Source: Syncephalis fuscata (taxonomy: Eukaryota > Zoopagomycota > Zoopagomycetes > Zoopagales > Piptocephalidaceae). From it: 23,439 nt of DNA. The notes beneath the pieces are model-generated. The model saw nothing but the letters and a program-made list of their open reading frames with translations, was not told where the DNA came from and did no database searches. The position numbers and the translations under genes were made by a program. Below are positions 3,213 through 20,060 of this stretch, piece by piece; the first letter of the stretch is position 1, and every line of letters starts with the position of its first letter. Location: positions 1 to 23,439 of the forward strand of contig JAHLTZ010000135.1 in the NCBI GenBank assembly GCA_025786725.1. The letters are read 5' to 3'.

Positions 3213-3218
3213 TTTATT
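3213..3218 (-). terminator. Candidate polyadenylation signal of the micro-exon gene
   Basis: An AATAAA on the minus strand lies about 235 nt after the predicted stop codon at 3451-3453. In such AT-rich DNA this hexamer is common, so the assignment is weak. Confidence 0.3.
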
Positions 3219-3450
3219 ACTATAAGCTTGCACAGTTGAATAGTAACAACTAAATGCAGTCTTGTTAATAAAAACAATGATTCCATTGATTAAAGACTGG
3301 ATAAACCGGAGCATTGGCCAAAACTTGATATATAAATAGACTGGACGGCGTAGTTGTCAAATGGTCTTGCTTTTTACCGAATATATAGCTAAAGTGTATT
3401 GGAATAGTGGTTTGATTGCACTACCAATGCTGATGTCTTGAAACCATCGA

Positions 3451-6400
3451 TTATGCTGTATTTACAAATAAAGATATTATATGTTATATGGTTAAGGCAT
3501 ATTCAGTTAATATATAATGTTACTTACTGTCTATTAATATTAATATATTGATACCATCAGTAAATAGCATAGTTAATATATAGTCGATTAATATATAATA
3601 TTACTTACCGACTATTAATATTAAACAATTGATACAATCAATGAATAGTATAGTTAATGTATAGTCAGTTAATATATAATGTTACTTACTGACTATTAAT
3701 ATTAAATAATCGGTACAATCAATAAATAACATAATTAGTATATAGTCAATTACTATAAAATACCACTTACGACCTGTTAATATTAAATAATCAGTACAAT
3801 CAGTAAATAGCATGTAATTAGTGAGTAATCAATTAATATAAAACACCACTTACTCTCTATTAATATTAAATAATTGGTACAATCAGTAAATAGCATGTGA
3901 TTAATGTATGTCAGTTGATATATGACGTAACTTACTGCCTATTAATATTAAATTATTGATACACACAATATATGATATGTAATTAGCCGGTAGTCGATTA
4001 ATATACAAGGCTACTTACAAACTATTAATATTAAATAATTAGTACAATAAGTAAATAGCAGTTAATATATAGTCAAGAGATATACAATATAACTTACTAT
4101 CTATTAATATTAAATAATCGGTACAATTAGTAAATAGCAGTTAATATACAATACTACTTACTATCTATTAATATTAAAATGATTGATACAATCAGTAAGT
4201 AGCATAGTTAATGTATAGTCAGTTAATATATAATACTACTTACGACCTATTAATATTAAATTATTGATGCACATAGTAGGTAACATGTGATTAGTACATA
4301 GTCGATTAATATAAAATGCTACTTACATCCTGTTAATAAGGTTGTAGATGCACATAATACATAGTATATAATTAGCCAATGGTTAGATAATATACAATGC
4401 TACTTACTGGCTATTAGTATTAATATATTGGGATCATCAGTAAATTGCGTAGTTAATATATAGTTAGTTAATATACAATATAACTTACTAGCTATTAATA
4501 TTAAGTTATTGATGCACGCAGTAAATAGGATAATTAATGTATATTCAATTAATATACAATATTACTTACTAACTATTATTATTAAATAATTGGTATAATT
4601 AGTAAATAACATAGTTGATATACAATACACTTACACCCTATTAATATTAAACAGTTGGTATCATTAGTAAATAGCAGTTAATATAGAAGCAATCAAATAT
4701 ATACTATCATTTACCCTCTATTAATATTAAATAATTGATACAATCAATAAATAATATAGTTAATGTATAGTCAGTTAATATATAATGTTACTTACCGCCT
4801 ATTAATATTAAATAATTGATATCATCAATAAATATTATAGTTAATATATAGTTAACTAATACACAATATAACTTACTATCTATTATGGTAAATAATTAGT
4901 AAATCAATAAATAGCATAGTTAATGTATAGTCAGTTAATATACGATACAACTTACTATCTATTAATATTAAATAAACGGTACAATCAGTAAATAGCATAG
5001 TTAATGTATAGCCAATTAATATACAATACACTTACACCCTATTAATATTAAAAAATTGGTACAATCAGTAAATAGCATAGTTAATGTATAGCCAATTAAT
5101 ATAAAATACCACTTACAAACTATTAATATTAAATAATTGGTACAATCAATAAATATTATAGTTAATGTATAGTCAGTTAATATACGATACAACTTACCGC
5201 CTATTGATATTAAACAATTGGTACAATCAATTAATAGCATAGTTAATGTATAGTCAGTTAATATATAATACTACTTACGACCTATTAATATTAAGTTATT
5301 GATGCACATAGTAGGTAACATGTGATTAGTACATAGTCGATTAATATAAAATGCTACTTACATCCTGTTAATAAGGTTGTAGATGCACATAATACATAGT
5401 ATATAATTAGCCAATGATTAGATAATATACAATGCTACTTACTATCTATTAATATTAAATAATTGATATCATCAGTAAATTGCATAGTTAATATATAGTT
5501 AGTTAATATACAATATCACGAAGGGGACGTTGCTAGCCCAGTAGGTAAGGCAGCGTTTCCCGAGCTGAAGGCTTTAGGTTCAAACTGAGGTTTGAACCAA
5601 TCCTTAAGTGGAAAATCCCCCCAGTTTTCTCTAGTTAACAAATTGCAAACCAGAACCCAATAAGTAGGTCCGGAAACAAGACCTTGGCCAGAATAGCCGA
5701 GGAAAACAATTGGGACCAACTTCAAGAGAATAGTGCTGTGTAGCGCCATTCAAAAAAAGATGGCCCCGCGTGGAATCTATATGGACCAGATTTGCGCAAA
5801 AACGTGGCAGTCCACCCGTTAAAAGTTTGGAAAAGTCCAAATATAGTGGGAAGCAGCGCAAATTCTTTAATTATGTGCAGCGGGGGCTCACAAGCTTTTC
5901 AAAATAAAATAATATACAGTGCTACTTACTCACTAATATATCAAGTCGTTGACACATAGTATATGACATATAATTAGTCCATAGTCAGTCAATATACAAT
6001 GCCACTTACTGCCTATTAATATTAGGTTGTCGATACACATAGTGCATAATATATAATTAGCTAGTGTTCAATTAATATACAATAACTTACATGCTATCGA
6101 TATTAAGTTATTGATATACATGGTGTATGGTATAAAATTAGCACATAATTAGCTAATACATAATACACCTTACACGCTATGGCATTAAGTTGTTGATACA
6201 TATAATACATAATATAGAGTTAGTTTATAAATTATCAACACGTAATTATAATTACAGTCTATTAATATTAAATTGTTCGTGCGCATGATGCATAACATGT
6301 AATTAGTGAGTAATCAATTAATATAAAATATAACTTACATTGAGCTAATATTAAATTATTAATAAATACAGTACATGGTACATAATTAATGTGTGTTCTA

Positions 6401-6673
6401 TTAATATATAATAGGACTTACCGCCTATTGATATTAAGTTATTGATAAACACAGTACATAGTATATAATCAGTGAGTAGTTATTTAATACGCAATACCAC
6501 TTACCATCTATTATAATTATTGTTTAAAAATACTATTAGTAATTATAATGTTATAGCATATTTATTTATTGCAACATACCACGACGAACTAAAGCTGGTT
6601 TAGCATCCACCATGGTTGTAACGGCCACAAGAGCCACGACAATGATGCAAACGGCGGCAATGGAAAGCTTCAT
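3451..6673 (-). CDS. Secreted Cys-rich peptide gene built from 33 single-codon micro-exons
   Basis: Exon 1 (6673-6580, 94 nt) encodes 31 residues plus one base. Residues 1-24 form a signal peptide (MKLS, hydrophobic core, likely cut after Val-Asp-Ala), and 25-31 are a short propeptide ending in a Kex2-type Arg-Arg. The donor G|GTATGT leaves phase 1. Then come 33 micro-exons between 6507 and 3528, 32 of 3 nt and one of 6 nt, each bounded by AG and GT. The terminal exon starts at 3455 after TTTGTAAATACAG, completes Thr66 and stops (TAA, 3453-3451). Coding length is 201 nt, exactly 67 codons. Only this phase is open: phase 0 meets TGA at micro-exon 8 and phase 2 meets TAG across micro-exons 9-10. 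The mature part, residues 32-66, has C39-x3-C43-x12-C56-x3-C60, the spacing style of alpha-hairpinin-like peptides. I do not recognise the family. Splicing is inferred from sequence alone. The alternative is a non-coding satellite next to an orphan signal-peptide exon. Confidence 0.82.
4244..4488 (-). repeat. Multi-unit block duplication within the array, copy 1
   Basis: This block of about three units is nearly identical to 5279-5515 at an offset of 1035 bp, which equals 13 units. It shares the rare intron variants acceptor CCTTATTAACAG and cacatagtaggtaacatg. Both copies carry GAT then GTC micro-exons, which in phase 1 give an Arg-Cys pair (R55-C56 here). The third triplet differs (CCA here, ATA in the other copy). 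Confidence 0.88.
5279..5515 (-). repeat. Multi-unit block duplication within the array, copy 2
   Basis: This is the partner of 4244-4488. Its GAT and GTC micro-exons (5362-5364, 5279-5281) encode R42-C43. The two Cys thus lie 13 residues apart in the peptide and 13 units apart in the DNA. The block is cut on its right by the SINE insertion. Confidence 0.88.
5534..5545 (+). promoter_or_regulatory. RNA polymerase III A box of the SINE
   Basis: TAGCCCAGTAGG fits the A-box consensus TRGCNNAGYNGG at every position and lies about 17 bp from the start of the element. Confidence 0.7.
5577..5598 (+). promoter_or_regulatory. B box of the SINE, within a 9-bp inverted repeat
   Basis: GGTTCAAACTG (5577-5587) resembles the B-box consensus GGTTCGANNCC and begins 31 bp after the A box. 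GGTTCAAAC (5577-5585) and its exact reverse complement GTTTGAACC (5590-5598) flank a 4-nt loop, so a hairpin may form. Confidence 0.6.
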
Positions 6674-6818
6674 GGTGATATTGATTTGTTGAGACAAACA
6701 AATAAAAGAGATAGTAGAGTGTGGTTGGTATAGAGTGGGGAGTAGTGTGTGTATTGCAGATAGTAGAGTGTGATGATGATATCGCAGTTGGTTGTGTATA
6801 TTTTGTGGGTTATTTATA
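6674..6818 (-). promoter_or_regulatory. TATA box and 5' leader of the micro-exon gene
   Basis: TATAAATA on the minus strand (6811-6818) lies about 140 bp before the ATG. The leader between them is rich in C and A and carries the 15-base motif CACACTCTACTATCT twice (near 6709 and 6761). The bases before the start are AATATCACC. A strong TATA-type promoter fits a highly expressed small secreted peptide, but no transcript evidence is available. Confidence 0.55.
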
Positions 6819-8919: not shown

Positions 8920-10874
8920 CTATTGCCAATTAGGCGTATCATAGGCAGAATAAACAATGGCTGAGTATGCACGTAACGTTTCTGTATTTGCTATCAACTA
9001 AGAAATTAAATTTGTTAGCACCAAATAAGCAAAACCAATAGGCTACTTACATCAAGGTATGGGTTGGGAACACCATTAAGTATTTCATGTACTTGATGGC
9101 TAATATCCGGCAGTAGTTTAGCCAGTGGTACTTGTTTTATCATAGCTTCCTCTTCGGTCGGTGTTAGTTCATGAATACCCGAACTGGCCATTTTCAAAGC
9201 AGGTAATGGGTCGGGGAAATTCGATACCTGTAGTCGATTAAGTAGCATACCAAACGACTCATTAAGACAATGTGCCAATACAGTAGTAAAATCAGGACTA
9301 TATTAGCATCATTATTATCATTAAATCATAGTAACTATTAGACTAATGTTTACATATCGTGTATACCCATCACTAACCTATCAATAAAGTCGCGAGTCTC
9401 GTCCAATAAACGACGTAAACCAGATGAAATTGGATTAACCGCCGTTGCAGCATCTTCAATGATACCCGATTCCTGTAATACACAAAGCGTATCTTCCTCG
9501 TCATCAGGTAATAACATGGATCGAACGCTAATGTTATTATCAACTATAAGCAAAACTTGTAATAATGTAAATACAAATAACAAACATACCTATCAAAGAA
9601 TGGCAATGGATGCTCAGAAGATATCGATGCAGCATCTTCAATTCGATCCCGTATTTGATTAATCATTTTACTCAAATCCTTATAAGAGCAAGCCTGTCTG
9701 AGACCCACACTAGCAGTAAATAAACAAAAATAAATACAGCCATTAAGTATTTATGAATTAAGACTTACTCTCCAATGACGGCCGTAGTAGCCTCGCGTAT
9801 TCTTTGTACACATGTATACCATCCTACATGCAATAGCCACCAGCTAAAACTAAGATAGTCACGCTCAGTATCGGTAGAAAGATTAGCATCGCTGTATTGC
9901 AGACGCATCTTAACCGATCCTTCAGCCTCTCGGCTCTCCTCAACTCCCGACTCGGCCACCGATGCCACATAGATGTGTCGTCCCACAAGATTCAATTGCA
10001 GATGAGTCAACAATGTCAGCAAGGTAATTAGATATGTGGCAGTAATAGTACGAGTAAAAGCTTTAAATATATTAACTTAATATGATTGATGGCTCATAAT
10101 AAACACTTACAACGTATTTTTAATTCTTGCCATAACTCTGCTTTGGTAAGACGATCTACAATTGTTTGTTTGTTTGTTTGTTTAATTAAATATTAACACT
10201 CCTATTAGCCTCCTACCTAATGGATGCTCCTCTATTGGTGGATCAATGGTATTTTCTTCAATAAAACTAGCCGAAGCCATCTCATGACCATTATCACTGG
10301 CTGTGCTGCTGTTTGTTGCACTATGACCACCATCGCTTACTGTCGCTTCCCCGCCTTCTTTTCTCTCCTTCTCGTCTGAAGCCTCACCCTCTTGACGTTC
10401 AGTCTTATCAACTTTTACAAAGCCACTTCCTGAAGCTGTTGATGCCGACATGGAGTGCGAGACATTTTGTCGATTGTTACGTAAACGCATAGTAATACCA
10501 TCGACGTCAACTTCTGTATCCAGTTGCTCAATCAGCGCTGGTAAAAGTGCCATTACTGTAAATAAACAATCATTTTGATTTTGTTCAAAGCGACGCTTTA
10601 AACTAATAGAATAGCCAGTATATAATATTGTTTCATTAGTAACCAAAGCAGAGTAGACTACTCTGTCAACCTACTCTGTTCGACGAGCCATTTCCTCAGA
10701 CGAACTACGTTGAAAGTTCGCCAATTTATTACGTATAAACCTAGTCGTTCCATAAATACCGCCTACCACACCAGCCGTGATCAGTAGGCCACGCTGGTGG
10801 CGTTTCGTGAAATCCCATATAGGTTGAAGCATCGCGAACCGAATAAAAGGAAAATAATCCTGGAGTGTGGCCAT
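8920..10874 (-). CDS. PEX3: Peroxisomal biogenesis factor 3 (peroxin-3)
   Basis: PEX3 is the peroxisomal membrane anchor that docks PEX19 with its cargo membrane proteins. Eight exons join cleanly: 10874-10675, 10602-10217, 10155-10111, 10060-9769, 9709-9590, 9527-9378, 9297-9051 and 8997-8920, giving 505 residues and a TAG stop. Residues around 29-45 (GLLITAGVVGGIYG) match the N-terminal membrane anchor, and the junction of exons 1 and 2 rebuilds the family hallmark LKRRFEQNQNDC followed by FTVMALLPAL. Later blocks (KAELWQELKIR, SFTRTITATYLITLLTLLTHLQ, and the C-terminal YSAIVYSAYD) also fit. A hydrophilic Ser/Glu-rich insert lies at about residues 115-180. It is longer than the yeast protein, apparently because of that insert. 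Introns are about 50-90 nt with GT-AG ends. Confidence 0.95.
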
Positions 10875-10985
10875 AGTCTACAAACTACGGCAACGTAAAC
10901 CCGGTCTAATCACGTGACAATACTCGTATACTAATGTGCGTCTATAACCGTATAACGATAATGATTTATTATTATAATATGTTAT

Positions 10986-11729: not shown

Positions 11730-13101
11730 ATGGTAATATAATGACGGTAACCAAATAGTAATTACTCACTAGCATACACTAATAGGAACACAGAGGAGCC
11801 AAGGTTAAAGAAACCTCGACCGAGGAACAAAAGCAGAAGCGAAAGGAACGGGAATTGGCCCGTATAGCCGAGTACTGTCAGCTGAAAGACAAAGCTTTTG
11901 AACAAGCAAGTTGTTTTGCACAATAGTCTCCTACTATACTTACTATCTACTAGAAACGGCTTAATGTATTTGACGAAGAAGCTCTTCGTATGACAACACG
12001 TCTACTACACTGGCATCCAGACTTTTATACAATATGGAACTATCGTCGTCAAATATTGATGGAACAATTTAAAGCAAGGTAATGTATTGTTATTGTCATT
12101 AGTGTGATATGGATTGAGACTAATCTATCATTATGCTCATTAGTGATGAAGGTAAACAGTCAGCTTGTGAGGCAGAATTGCGGTTAGTAGAAGATTTGGT
12201 GCGTAAACAGCCTAAATCCTACTGGATCTGGAATCATCGACGATGGGTGCTTGAAACGATACCTTGCGCCAATTGGCAACGCGAACTAGGACTAACCAGT
12301 CTTATGCTTGATCTGGACCAACGTAACTGTAAGATACTAAGATAGGGAGCTATATCTATGTATATATGTATTGATAGAATATATTATGATTGGATAGTTC
12401 ATGGATGGCAGTATCGCTATGCGGTGATTCGGCAATTACGCGATGAGAATCCAGAGCAAGACCAGCAACTTATTAAAGAAGAGCTGGCATATACAAAACA
12501 GAAGATCAGCCAAAGTTTTTCAAATGGTTCGGCATGGCATTATCGCAGTAAATTACTACCCTTAGTGCTACAAGCAACTGAGGATACATCTCGCCAAATG
12601 GAACTTATTAAAGAAGGCAAGTATAAGTGGTTATATTTTAATACACTAATATATTGTTTACTTAGAGTTTGATATGGTTCAATCGGCATTCTACACTGAT
12701 CCTGATGATCAAAGTGCTTGGATTTATTATCGCTCATGGATCCAGTATTTGAATGATCATCCAGATTTACCAGGATTACACGGTATTGAATTACTACGAC
12801 GAGAAGCCGAGGTTATTCGTGAATTACTCTCGATTGAGCCTGAGGCCAAGTGTAAGTGGGTCATACAAGTTTATTACTTGTTTTAACCATCCTATGGACA
12901 ACTATGGTTTATCGATTATTAGGGCCTCTATTAACGTTGCAACATTTAATGCAACAGTTACAGAAATGTAAGGCCACTACAGGCCAGGATAGCCAAGAAT
13001 TGGAACAATTGTCAAGCACGTTAATTCAAGTCGATCCAATGCGTGCTAATCGCTATAAACATTTGGGACAGACTACTGTCGCTGCCCAAATGAATGAATA
13101 A
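11730..13101 (+). CDS. BET4: Rab geranylgeranyltransferase (GGTase-II) alpha subunit
   Basis: This subunit pairs with the beta subunit (BET2) and the Rab escort protein to prenylate Rab GTPases. Exons 11730-11732, 11786-11905, 11954-12078, 12144-12328, 12398-12616, 12666-12851 and 12923-13101 give 338 residues, close to the yeast length. The prenyltransferase alpha repeats are clear: HPDFYTIWNYRRQIL, KSYWIWNHRRWVL, NFHGWQYRYAVIR, SAWHYRSKLLP and DPDDQSAWIYYRSWI. The start codon alone forms the first coding exon (ATG|GTAATA). Two introns need GC donors: 11906-11953 and 12617-12665, both GCAAGT. No nearby GT donor keeps the frame. No LRR or Ig-like insert as in mammals is present, as usual for fungi. 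Confidence 0.94.
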
Positions 13102-16267: not shown

Positions 16268-19200
16268 TTAAACCCAATGAACTGTGGGCTGTTCGGCGCT
16301 ATATTCCCGGAATGCCTTCTCCATTAGACGGAATCCATTCTCGTCGGTGACACGGGTAAGGCGACCATCGAGCGACAGAACCAGCAGTCGCTCGCGTACA
16401 TCGGATTCGGCAAATCCAGCCCGTACTGCTTTACGCAATGCTAGCAAGTAGAATGCATCAAAGCCAGCCGTAGATGATACACAGAGTGCAATACGATGAT
16501 CATGGTCAATCACTAGCTTAACAAGGAATTGGTCACGTGGTAATCTCATTGATGTTAAGCCAGATGGTGGCGGTGGGCCATGCGACTGCGAATAATTTAA
16601 ACAGCGATTCTTATTGCTTAACGGAGTTGAAGAAAGTGCGGTATTAGTGGCATTAGAGGAGGAAAAATTAGCGGAGTCCTGAATTGAAGCGGTGGCCAGC
16701 ATCTTTGTATTAGTCGTTGACGATGATAAACAAGAAGAAGAGGAAGAAGTAACGTTGGCGGCGGACGAGGAAGAAGAAGAAGAAGAAGAGGAAAAATAAG
16801 GAGGTAGTGGGCAAGTTGGTGCTACTGGTAAGGATCGCTCCTTTGATAAACATTCTTCATTTAATGATGATACTGGTGTCACGCTCAAGGTGGTGACTTT
16901 TGCCTTAGGCGAAAATGAGCCTGACGACTTGGTTACAGAAGTGGATATAAGGAGAGACGGCGTATTTGTACTAGCATCAATCATGGAACGCTGCTGCCCA
17001 TTTGCTGCTGTTTTATCTGTATTGAGACTTGGATGACTCTTAATAAAAGCCTCTAATGTATCAAGGTTGCTTGTTTTCCTTTCTGACCAGCTATTTTTAC
17101 TAGCTATCGATGCAAATGAAGATCGTCTTGATGAAATTGATGTTCTAGATGATGCACTCGTAGTAAGCTGTACGCTGCCTTTCTTTGCATGTGCCGCATG
17201 CGATGCTGGCGAAGACGATCGCATGTAATGCTGTCCTCTAGTAGATTCAAGTGGTATGGCCTTTGGTGTGGTTGATGTGCTTAACGACGGATTTTCATTG
17301 CTATTGATCATGTCTTGGAATGAAGACTGGCCAATACTTTTACGTAGAGGTGATTTACTTTTAACCGGCGGCGGAATAACACCCAGGAATGACGTGACAG
17401 ATGCATGGGTACTACCCGGTAGAGGAGGTACATCGACTGTACCCATAGCATGAGCATTGGCAATATTGTTCATGTCGGAGGGCAATGAACCTCGACGGGT
17501 AATTGTTTTACTATTTGCGCCTGCCTCCAAAATAGACATGCTATTTTTATGTTTCAATGTGCCTTGACCCATAATATTGGATATACTGTTCGATTTTGGT
17601 CGATGTAACTTTGGCGAGGCAAGTGGTAGTGGTCGGGCAGTGCTAGATGTTGATTGACATACTTCAGCAGTGTCGAAATTTCTAGATAAGGCCGGTTGAG
17701 GCTGCTTAAAACTTAAAGGCCGGCCTTTTCTATTATCCGATATAGACTCAATCGCAGTATTGGATTTACCAACGGATTCTTGTGTAAGAAAGTCCTCTGG
17801 TATATCGGATAGAGTGGGCTGTTCCATTTTGCCAGATTTGGGTGGTGATGACGGTGACGCCTCTTCTACTGATGTCCTATGAGCACTTGAAATGGCCGAG
17901 TGAAACAGCGGTATTTCTATGTGTACTTCTATTGAAGACCTTGCTCGTGGACGATTATTAATAGATGTTGTGCCAAGTTTTGTGACAGTAGGAAAGCTCG
18001 ATAGCTCTAAGGGTGATAACGGTGAGGCAATACTACAAGGCCGGGCTGGTAATTGCGTTGCATTGCGATGATTTGGATTATCTAGACTATTGCGACGCTG
18101 CTGGCTTGCTTTAACACGATCTATTTGATGCTGGTCACCAATGGGCGAGGTAATATTGCGTCGAGCTGATACAATAACCGGCGTCATTAATCGTTGAAGC
18201 GGTGCTCCTCCAGCTGAGGCAGTAATCGATTCGTTATCAAATGGCTTCCGAGAGAAAATAACCGACGTTGAACGAGGCAATGGCCGTGTTGATTGTGACT
18301 GTGGCAGTACATAAGATGCAGTAGCAAATTTGGCTGAGAAGGGCGTCATAACTGCACGGGCCATACATATTTCCTCATCCTCGCTTTCATCACTTTGACT
18401 ATCACTGTCAGAGTTGCTTGATAGCGAAGATGGCTTGGATGCATCTATTTGCTGTGTATCTTTGATTTTTTGACGTACAGTAGTAGCTGTTGATTCAGAA
18501 TCAGTGCTTAATATTGGTTTGCTATTATCGTTCATTGCCGCGGCTCTAGCTGATAAAACAGAGTTCAAAGGAGAAACACTGTTTGAACGTAATGAAGGTG
18601 TGCCTAGTTTCAAATGATCGCCAGACTCTATATCCGAGTAAAACTGTGCATCAATAGCAGCTTCTAGAGCGGAGACAGCTAGAATGTCGTTTGTATCACC
18701 TGCATTGCGGCAATTGATACGAGACATTATGGTGACTGGTTGAGGGGAAGCAAGTAGATCATCTTGGTAATAATCAATTGAATTTGAGGATTGGGTCGAG
18801 TTGGAATTGTTTCTATTTGTACTAGTGGTCGACCAAGTAGAAGACGACGATCTTTCTGCTGTTTCATCAACATTAGTGGTATAATGTGATAGTGAAGTAT
18901 CATACGAGGAATTGGATCCTGATGTATGAGACTTTGTTTGATTCCTTTGGCGTGGGTCAGCCGACAGTGAATCTATACCAGTAGTGTTATTAATTGGATT
19001 ACAAGATGAAACGCAGTTTTGATTTAATCCAAATTTCGATAACTTACCACTAATCGATGATTGTTTATTTGTTGTTGTTGTCGTTGTTGTTGTTGTTGTG
19101 TGATATGATTGAAGTGATGAATAAGAATCGATGGATTCAGTTTTTGTATATGCTGAATAGGGTGACATGCCCGATGATACAGCTTTTGTGCTAAAAAGCT

Positions 19201-19318
19201 GATGGTGGTCATGATTATCTACTGTCTTTTCATTGACTCCCAATGAATCGGCCAAGGCCGTTTGGCCTACATTTATTTGATCCTGGGATGTAATGGGATG
19301 GGTGGTTGAAAACGACAT
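16268..19318 (-). CDS. Large Ser/Thr-rich protein with a C-terminal PB1-like domain
   Basis: A single exon encodes 1,016 residues from the Met at 19318, or 1,031 from an upstream Met at 19363. I prefer 19318 because the upstream stretch has low-complexity leader character. Most of the protein is predicted to be disordered: Ser/Thr/Asn-rich, with a poly-Thr run near residue 90, an acidic patch (SDSDSQSDESEDEE) near 315-330, many basic SP/TP-type sites, and a poly-Ser run near 870. The last 90 residues are compact (FLVKLVIDHDHRIALCV ... FRLMEKAFREY) and resemble a PB1/ubiquitin-like fold: basic strand 1, helix, then acidic DEN loop. PB1 domains mediate scaffold pairing in polarity and NADPH-oxidase complexes. 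Function and precise family are unknown. Long upstream DNA suggests complex regulation. Confidence 0.8.
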   Translation of the reverse strand: MSFSTTHPITSQDQINVGQTALADSLGVNEKTVDNHDHHQLFSTKAVSSGMSPYSAYTKTESIDSYSSLQSYHTTTTTTTTTTNKQSSISGKLSKFGLNQNCVSSCNPINNTTGIDSLSADPRQRNQTKSHTSGSNSSYDTSLSHYTTNVDETAERSSSSTWSTTSTNRNNSNSTQSSNSIDYYQDDLLASPQPVTIMSRINCRNAGDTNDILAVSALEAAIDAQFYSDIESGDHLKLGTPSLRSNSVSPLNSVLSARAAAMNDNSKPILSTDSESTATTVRQKIKDTQQIDASKPSSLSSNSDSDSQSDESEDEEICMARAVMTPFSAKFATASYVLPQSQSTRPLPRSTSVIFSRKPFDNESITASAGGAPLQRLMTPVIVSARRNITSPIGDQHQIDRVKASQQRRNSLDNPNHRNATQLPARPCSIASPLSPLELSSFPTVTKLGTTSINNRPRARSSIEVHIEIPLFHSAISSAHRTSVEEASPSSPPKSGKMEQPTLSDIPEDFLTQESVGKSNTAIESISDNRKGRPLSFKQPQPALSRNFDTAEVCQSTSSTARPLPLASPKLHRPKSNSISNIMGQGTLKHKNSMSILEAGANSKTITRRGSLPSDMNNIANAHAMGTVDVPPLPGSTHASVTSFLGVIPPPVKSKSPLRKSIGQSSFQDMINSNENPSLSTSTTPKAIPLESTRGQHYMRSSSPASHAAHAKKGSVQLTTSASSRTSISSRRSSFASIASKNSWSERKTSNLDTLEAFIKSHPSLNTDKTAANGQQRSMIDASTNTPSLLISTSVTKSSGSFSPKAKVTTLSVTPVSSLNEECLSKERSLPVAPTCPLPPYFSSSSSSSSSSAANVTSSSSSCLSSSTTNTKMLATASIQDSANFSSSNATNTALSSTPLSNKNRCLNYSQSHGPPPPSGLTSMRLPRDQFLVKLVIDHDHRIALCVSSTAGFDAFYLLALRKAVRAGFAESDVRERLLVLSLDGRLTRVTDENGFRLMEKAFREYSAEQPTVHWV

Positions 19319-20060
19319 AGCGCTATATTGTTGTATAATAATGGTAGGCGTGTATCTGTGCACTAATAAAAGAATATACCAAATATGTCACACTTTGTGC
19401 ACTATAAACTGAAAGTAAACGATGGCAAAAACAAGCTACCTGCGCCAGAAGGAATAAAAGCAAAGACAAATAGTGAGAAAGTACGAAGAAGGCAAATAGT
19501 AAAGCGGAATAAAAGGTGTAGTCCTGCTCCACCAAAAAGCTAAATGCAATAAAATAATATCTGAGCGAGCGAGTGAATGGGAGAAAGGAGAGGAGGTGGT
19601 ATAGAAAAGTCGTACACTGCAAGTCACTGTAACCGTATAAAAATAGTATGTTGCTGCCTCATCCGTGTTAGATTAGGCACTAGTACAGGCATGCGGTTGC
19701 ATGAAGTCAGGTCAATACAAGAATCGGCGCTTTTAGTAGTCCAAATGGCCATACTAACCTTGGCAATTTGGCTATCGGTCTTGGAGATTAAAGTATATTG
19801 TAGAGTATATTTTGTTGTTTTTACAGATGCCAACAAATGGTTATTACGGATGTTGGTGTTTATTATTCATATTCATTTATTCTGTTTGAAGCGCTGATTT
19901 TTTATCAGTTTTTCTTTATTGTGCTAAATGATTGCTACTTGAAGTAATGTTTAAAACATGAAATAGCCAGATATTAACATGCCATTTTGGTCATTATTAT
20001 GGCTATACTAGTATTACTAGTAGAAAAAATAGAATTATTCAAGTATGACTGGTTGGATGG

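Follow-up and report, generated by a model that had tools for sequence, protein, structure and literature searches.

We analyzed a stretch of 23,439 nucleotides (nt) from the fungus Syncephalis fuscata (assembly GCA_025786725.1, contig JAHLTZ010000135.1, positions 1 to 23,439), referred to here as the window, and found on its minus strand a gene in which a signal-peptide exon is followed by a long tandem array of exons that are, with one exception, exactly 3 nt long. This gene is very probably a member of a large S. fuscata family of secreted, cysteine-rich peptide genes built from spliced 3-nt exons. Its anatomy and frame, the coding signal of its joined exons, the family around it and the contiguous paralogues of that family can all be read in the sequence. 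A preliminary description of the window had proposed a secreted-peptide gene composed of dozens of consecutive 3-nt exons; the analysis supports that proposal, and points to a family rather than a single oddity.

Anatomy of the window gene

The locus, read and parsed over 3451-6673, runs from an ATG at 6673 through a TAA at 3453-3451. Exon 1, of 94 nt, encodes MKLSIAAVCIIVVALVAVTTMVDAKPALVRR; its final base begins the next codon, and a donor GTATGT adjoins it. Of the 33 internal exons that come next, 32 are 3 nt long and the other, CTCAAT at 6344-6339, has 6 nt. The predicted spliced product is 201 nt long including the stop and encodes 66 residues, with four cysteines in the pattern CxxxC ... 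CxxxC; its predicted mature part is DGAQYSSCMNRCRVWYNSEGFTTRCHNICKSLIDT. The preliminary description had counted a signal-peptide exon with an Arg-Arg site, 33 micro-exon units of 3 nt (once 6 nt) and a product of 201 nt or 67 codons closed by a TAA in the terminal exon. Its unit count proved exact on re-parsing, and its product was borne out as 66 residues and a stop. Its intron sizes (about 62-80 nt, one longer and holding a short interspersed element, or SINE) need correction at the lower bound only, since the 34 introns measure 61-80 nt each, save the ninth, of 484 nt (5929-5446). Intron phase is 1, so that a codon straddles a junction, with one base from the end of a 3-nt exon and two from the start of the next; the exon is codon-sized, yet none of the 3-nt exons contains a whole codon. 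Neither strand of 3451-6673 has an open reading frame (ORF) of 80 or more amino acids, with ATG, GTG or TTG allowed as the start.

A genome-wide family of arrays

The exact pattern TTAATAG-N3-GTAAGT occurs 1992 times in the 28.95-megabase S. fuscata genome, and the same pattern taken backwards occurs once; the 3-nt layout is more than chance. With spacings of N0-2 between the two half-motifs there are 16 occurrences genome-wide vs 19 for the control, and with the eleven spacings N4-14 there are 58 vs 35. Because this strict motif fits only 405 of the 787 internal exons modeled below, the genome-wide total of such exons may be about 3900, a figure extrapolated on the assumption that the sample is representative.

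Searches with other parts of the family found it widely dispersed. The terminal end of the window gene, used as a DNA query, matched at least 355 places genome-wide (the best 40 of 337 candidates were scored), and a contiguous family protein, P0001, matched at least 150 places, array and contiguous genes together (the best 150 of 313 candidates were scored). Of 147 candidates for a profile of nine predicted family peptides, ten proteins scored at E <= 10, and every one of them is from S. fuscata. One of four peptides tested against Pfam, that of locus L010, matched the scorpion short toxin family Toxin_2 (PF00451) at E 2e-4 and 22 bits, under the curated cut-off of 25.1; the other three did not match it.

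For modeling, we took an array sample of 20 fetched loci and eight more, chosen by their likeness to the end of the window gene. Exon 1 is present in 19 other fetched loci and in the eight further ones. L027, whose stretch stops short of exon 1, was left out, and the modeled set is the 28 genes with both ends, the window gene included. Each gene was parsed by dynamic programming, which chained scored donors and acceptors without reference to frame; its smooth length term gives 3 nt no advantage over lengths of 1 or 2 nt. Because the site matrices took their seed from sites bordering 3-nt exons, they are biased toward such sites; the genome-wide spacing counts are independent of them. The final form of the model sets a minimum score for other YAG and GTA sites and applies a stricter rule to long introns. 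Later forms return all 33 window exons, whereas two earlier, more rigid forms of the acceptor matrix missed some.

The 787 internal exons of the 28 genes comprise 752 of 3 nt, 28 of 6 nt, five of 2 nt, and one each of 7 nt and 1 nt; 780 are divisible by three. Intron lengths fall at 57-92 nt in 802 of 815 cases and at 450-1412 nt in the other 13. Exons reading 'TATT' beside long introns in L024, L059 and L061 were rejected as artefacts at SINE-like inserts, and they disappeared under the stricter long-intron rule. The 6-nt exons often stand third in the array and often end in AAT, as does the one at 6339-6344. Among 496 seed sites, 97% have G as the fifth donor base and 97% have T as the sixth (the picking pattern already required GTA), and the acceptor consensus is TTAATATTAATAG. 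Exon positions have no strong base preference.

Frame is kept in 21 of the 28 genes, and 20 genes are both in frame and start with ATG. A stop is found in the terminal exon of 27 (TAA in 24, TAG in two, TGA in one) and in the remaining gene there is none. Across the 21 in-frame genes the number of units ranges from 9 to 42. The hydrophobic N-terminus on exon 1 is conserved across the family as judged by eye, and longer members tend to have a CxxCxxxC ... CxxxC pattern in common. The introns themselves form one sequence family, with a mean identity of 0.60 for random units of different genes and 0.65 for neighbors. In one instance (L015 and L028, in G000:C68), two adjoining array genes do not differ in exon 1 or over the first 150 nt of the terminal exon, while their micro-exons differ by 57%; the ends of this pair seem to have been homogenized.

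Coding signal of the joined exons

Because the introns are in phase 1, a codon exists only once neighboring exons have been joined. We therefore permuted exon order, gene by gene, in the 21 that keep frame (587 codons, 1000 shuffles), a treatment that retains the exons and their phase and destroys the codons. The true order gives two stops, against a shuffle mean of 32.0 and a minimum of 20, and both terminate short peptides, those of L011 and L014. It gives 99 cysteines, against a mean of 54.2 and a maximum of 70. In the 17 longer genes (542 codons), the predicted frame has no stops and 91 cysteines, while one of the other two frames has 2 stops and 1 cysteine and the other has 31 stops and 18 cysteines. 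The cysteine count is even (2, 4, 6 or 8) in 20 of the 21 in-frame genes. That the joined product is coding is supported by the order shuffle, by the even cysteine counts, and by the contiguous paralogues of two other members' peptides, described next.

Contiguous paralogues

The genome also contains contiguous genes of the same family, whose mature part is encoded in a single unbroken ORF. When the spliced mature peptide of L013 was searched against the whole genome, two matches were found, both copies of one contiguous ORF (C104 and C212; 54% identity, E 1.6e-5). The corresponding peptide of L010 found four, all contiguous family ORFs (E 1.5e-4 to 0.0024), with a gapless alignment over 31 residues. 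Such searches score only candidates that pass a loose first look, here two for L013 and four for L010. As a broader comparison, 17 mature regions of at least 15 residues were aligned to 19 of 20 contiguous peptides, the one most like L013 being left out, with 300 residue shuffles for each. For seven of the 17, none or one of the 300 shuffles scored as high, and for four more, the window's included, between 2 and 17 did.

Comparison of flanking sequence between six contiguous genes and the 28 array genes separates two kinds of relationship. The flanks of L030, L031 and L032 match array genes for 700-900 nt upstream and more than 870 nt downstream, and those of L029 match for 156 nt upstream, where the stretch ends, and 878 nt downstream. 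In the two L033 genes the match starts only 58 or 107 nt upstream of the ATG and ends 256-257 nt past the stop. The point 107 nt before the ATG lies, in array genes, about 30 nt past a TATA-like box, at the expected start of a transcript. In the L033 copies, AAAAAA stands about 20 nt beyond AATAAA, at a point where array genes continue with other sequence. The first L033 copy, in which the match begins about 58 nt before the ATG, is flanked by a 13-nt repeat, GATTACGGTATAC and GATTACTATATAC, alike at 11 of 13 positions. This copy, which is also the paralogue matched by the spliced L013 peptide, looks like a reverse-transcribed, polyadenylated messenger RNA (mRNA). The second copy has the same 3' flank, and the 5' repeat is absent from the 160 nt covered; with identical 3' flanks, the two are not independent. 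The L033 region (G000:C212) holds two contiguous genes whose mature parts differ while the 3' flank beyond the A-run is common to both, and it seems that one locus was copied and its coding part then changed.

Among deposited proteins, P0006 (BDF19DRAFT_453770, from the L013 locus) can be decomposed, by a script that sought one decomposition of the protein sequence, into a 94-nt exon 1, two 3-nt exons (CCA and AAG, both at their modeled places), and a last exon reading on into the next intron. P0003, fitted to L018, resolved into two long exons and no 3-nt exons.

Evolution and origin of the arrays

In five of seven close paralogue pairs, raw exon divergence is two to four times intron divergence; L010/L012 and L011/L014 do not follow this pattern. 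Silent and replacement rates are alike in several pairs. The introns, however, are constrained at many positions. After normalization of each divergence to the mismatch of randomly chosen units at that position, the values for exons and introns were 0.12 vs 0.16 in five close pairs and 0.86 vs 0.77 in six distant pairs.

Units within a gene carry a record of their own. A self-BLAST, whose alignments ran into less similar units, gave one duplicated block, and a unit-by-unit comparison gave 14 runs. Where flanks match within pairs and differ from each other, as in a duplicated block, the exons are identical in 7 of 11 pairs, one of the window's among them. Where the pairs lie in homogenized runs of alike introns, the exons are identical in only 6 of 55, at least 33 of the 55 coming from L018 (Fisher p 0.0005, the pairs not being independent). 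Judging from these pairs, units are duplicated together with their codon, and introns also seem to be homogenized without it.

These runs bear on the origin of the arrays, for which a contiguous ancestor that received introner-like insertions between its codons is a rather unlikely starting point; the competing account is duplication of intron plus codon, with later loss of introns through mRNA copies in some genes. Insertion would produce introns that are 90-100% alike within a gene around unrelated exons, as in the homogenized runs just described. It would likewise fit the exon mismatch of 0.69 against 0.13 at variable intron positions in 47 within-gene pairs at flank identity 0.90-0.95. However, homogenization of introns would explain this excess equally well, and gene conversion confined to introns accounts as well for the homogenized runs. 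The promoter and long 3' flank that array genes have in common with four of the six contiguous genes with flanks also favor insertion, being unlike a plain mRNA copy, but the L033 copy indicates that a loss route exists, and some blocks, including one in the window gene, were evidently duplicated with their codons. Moreover, we know of no precedent for insertion at every codon in one phase. In a tree of exon 1 and 50 nt upstream (53 rows), array and contiguous genes are mixed, with nine changes between the two states, at least two of them forced by well-supported branches; the alignment is short, its bootstrap unsettled, and conversion may mislead it. No half-array, half-contiguous gene occurs among the 28 modeled, a set selected mostly for resemblance to the end of the array.

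Weighing the splicing model

Several observations weigh against the reading of these loci as genes spliced from 3-nt exons. Seven of the 28 (L015, L016, L017, L018, L024, L062 and L064) are out of frame through 1-, 2- or 7-nt exons, and an in-frame ATG is absent from L024 and from L026, which is otherwise in frame; such genes may be pseudogenes or assembly errors. L026 also has seven cysteines under the final model, and six under an earlier one. Parity and frame counts are not independent trials, because the genes are related. The mature peptide of the window gene has no contiguous paralogue at E <= 10 genome-wide, although an empty answer is not proof of absence, and its likeness to the sampled contiguous peptides is modest (score 47, equaled by 3 of 300 shuffles). 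L019, L020, L025 and L061 do not rise above shuffles (at least 138 of 300 as high), and L057 and L059 do so weakly (22 and 25 of 300). The mRNA-like L033 copy supports splicing of the arrays without proving it, since its parent could be a contiguous gene. A structure model of the contiguous paralogue P0001 is weak (mean predicted local distance difference test score, pLDDT, 66.3), and a search of the PDB gave no match, the best E being 2.8. Finally, positive selection or hypermutation of the 3-nt exons is unsupported, as exon and intron divergence are about equal after normalization.

What we infer beyond these observations concerns splicing in vivo, its order, the processing of the product, and its role. 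Each unit of the array would pair a 3-nt exon with an intron of about 78 nt, and the spliceosome would remove the introns. A 3-nt exon is too short for recognition across the exon, and exon positions lack a strong preference, so the introns would be recognized singly through strong intronic signals (GTAAGT and TTAATATTAATAG). U1 and the acceptor factors can hardly occupy 3 nt together, and for that reason removal is probably sequential, 5' to 3', with each codon piece joining the growing upstream exon and splicing completing the phase-1 codons. Gain, loss or skipping of a whole unit would change the peptide by one residue with the frame retained. The product would consist of a signal peptide, a propeptide ending in Arg-Arg for a presumed Kex2-type cleavage, and a mature peptide of about 9-46 residues, strongly variable between genes and with a usually even number of cysteines. 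Syncephalis, a genus of Zoopagales, parasitizes other fungi, and the likeliest role of the peptides, given a mycoparasitic genus, would be to attack or manipulate host fungi or competitors.

Because units share one phase and introns recombine, single-residue change without frameshift would follow. A wider reading, which we offer as tentative, is a codon-by-codon architecture in which thousands of codon-sized exons in tandem arrays are spliced in order into hypervariable secreted peptides, and in which recombination or exon skipping could add, delete or exchange residues and leave the frame intact. Such an architecture would be a means of evolving, and perhaps of splicing, new disulfide peptides.

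It is improbable that varying subsets of the 3-nt exons are joined, so that each gene yields many in-frame peptides of which the full-length product is one. Units of 3 or 6 nt preserve phase, so skips would stay in frame, and the range of 9 to 42 units among in-frame genes is consistent with such use, but with units skipped, the cysteines would often become odd in number and lose the spacing common to contiguous paralogues, and the donor and acceptor motifs are strong, though their shares come from sites pre-picked by a GTA-type pattern. That the arrays are unexpressed, a non-coding repeat or sequence store whose coding look is a relic while the contiguous paralogues alone work, is very improbable: the seven out-of-frame genes and the repeat-like homogenization of introns fit it, but frame, splice sites, stop and cysteine parity should all decay in a dead array, whereas 20 of 28 genes are in frame with an ATG, promoter and signal peptide are kept, and splice-site bases differ by 0-7.5% between paralogues vs 1-30% for introns.

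Feature coordinates in the window

All features of the gene lie on the minus strand. Upstream, at 6811..6818, the sequence reads TATAAATA, which we take to be the TATA-box-like element of a conserved promoter; TATAAATA or TTTAAATA stands in the equivalent position upstream of four contiguous paralogues, L029-L032. Exon 1 (6580..6673) comprises the ATG, a signal peptide MKLSIAAVCIIVVALVAVTTMVDA (delimited by eye), the propeptide KPALVRR with its dibasic site, and one base that opens the following codon. The 3-nt and 6-nt exons that follow rest on the strict splice pattern, the sequence parse and the frame-blind splice model, except where stated. The array opens with ATG (6505..6507), GCG (6422..6424), the 6-nt CTCAAT (6339..6344), ACT (6256..6258, donor GTAATT), CGT (6174..6176, donor GTAAGG), CAT (6091..6093), GCA (6010..6012) and TGA (5930..5932). 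Beyond the 484-nt intron (5446..5929), whose SINE-like insert spans about 5518-5905 when read on the plus strand, come ATA (5443..5445), GAT (5362..5364), GTC (5279..5281), GCG (5198..5200), TTT (5117..5119), GGT (5036..5038), ATA (4956..4958), ATA (4877..4879), GCG (4796..4798), AGG (4715..4717, donor GTAAAT; found by the parse and the splice model and missed by the strict pattern), GGT (4635..4637), TTA (4570..4572), CTA (4489..4491), CCA (4408..4410), GAT (4327..4329) and GTC (4244..4246, from the parse and the unit-by-unit comparison). The introns preceding these last two, GAT 4329-4327 and GTC 4246-4244, are 99% copies of those preceding GAT 5364-5362 and GTC 5281-5279, exons included. 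The array ends with ATA (4162..4164), ATA (4098..4100), TTT (4019..4021), GCA (3936..3938), AGA (3854..3856), GTC (3771..3773), TCA (3690..3692), TCG (3609..3611) and ACA (3528..3530). The first two bases of the terminal exon (3213..3455) finish the last codon, for Thr; the TAA at 3453-3451 follows, and the 3' untranslated region extends at least to an AATAAA at 3218-3213.

The SINE-like insert of the 484-nt intron has, on the plus strand, sequences near 5534 and 5577 that we presume by eye, from the consensus, to be transfer RNA (tRNA)-like A and B boxes; ARAGORN (for tRNA) and Rfam called nothing in the window. It has at least 43 matches genome-wide (the best 40 of 59 candidates were scored), of which 41 long ones are 86-100% identical, and among the matches listed a number lie at coordinates within other array genes. 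The same insert stands in different introns of L059, L061 and L024; in L061 a single intron contains two copies, and the L059 insert seems to be flanked by a short direct repeat, GTAGTATT. Elsewhere in the window are gene pieces for peroxin-3 (9015-10900, minus strand) and for a protein prenyltransferase alpha subunit (11780-13101, plus strand), both apparently split by ordinary short introns, and a serine- and threonine-rich ORF of 1031 amino acids (16268-19363, minus strand) with no Pfam match at E <= 0.001.

Significance and comparison with known systems

Single exons of 1-3 nt are known rarities; here, dozens of them in succession would need faithful splicing, 34 splices for a 66-residue peptide, with exon definition left without an exon to act on. 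The arrays would be a natural test bed for intron definition and splicing order. That a change of one unit is a change of one residue suggests a possible reason for keeping such a gene form. Annotation can miss array genes, for the deposited protein at the L013 locus is readable as exon 1 and two 3-nt exons followed by intron, and other genomes may hold more of them. If transcripts confirm it, arrays of 3-nt exons would be gene splicing pushed to its limit in a putative mold parasite of molds.

Conotoxin-type precursors combine a conserved signal and propeptide, a dibasic cleavage site and a hypervariable cysteine-rich mature peptide. They share this layout with the S. fuscata family, and codon-sized exons are absent from the conotoxin type; no homology is claimed. 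Aphid bicycle genes have many small exons, longer than those of the S. fuscata arrays. They are animal genes with exons that are not codon-sized. Bicycle genes are described as fast-evolving putative effectors recognized by gene structure (PMC9168663).

Very small exons are on record as a 1-nt exon in Arabidopsis APC11 (PMC4674806), a 3-bp exon in Drosophila homothorax (PMC7392893) and a 1-nt exon in Fusarium CYP621A (PMC12940212). As there presented, these cases indicate that exons of 1-3 nt can be spliced, as the S. fuscata arrays would need, but each gene has one tiny exon where S. fuscata has an uninterrupted array. Introners, or introner-like elements, are described as many alike short introns per genome and are known in some fungi (PMC9860276, PMC4457414). 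The S. fuscata introns are likewise one sequence family in many copies, with 1992 exact splice-motif pairs, but unlike introners as described in those sources they stand in tandem with 3 nt between them. The main text of one introner paper (PMC9860276) contains neither the word Syncephalis nor the word Zoopag. In the open-licence PMC literature we found no report of arrays of 3-nt exons, and none joining Syncephalis, introns and secretion, which leaves their absence from print unproved.

The nearest system in logic appears to be the micro-exon genes (MEGs) of schistosomes, for which one account gives 35 genes with 10-20 exons each, of 6-81 bp (3-81 in its abstract) and mostly 15 bp, and introns of 0.1-5 kilobases (PMC10526429). 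As far as that account goes, the two have in common secreted variable proteins, a conserved signal peptide, many very short exons mostly divisible by three, and poor capture by automatic annotation (PMC10526429). The S. fuscata arrays, too, have many consecutive, very short, mostly symmetric exons (780 of 787 divisible by three in the 28 genes) and a signal peptide, judged by eye, on a conventional first exon. They differ in scale: in place of 15-bp exons in a range of 6-81 and introns of 0.1-5 kilobases, 752 of 787 exons are 3 nt long, up to 42 units stand consecutively, and the introns, alike in sequence, are about 78 nt long, with 802 of 815 at 57-92 nt. An array of codon-sized exons may be a new kind of gene structure or, on a more cautious view, an extreme form of the micro-exon gene.

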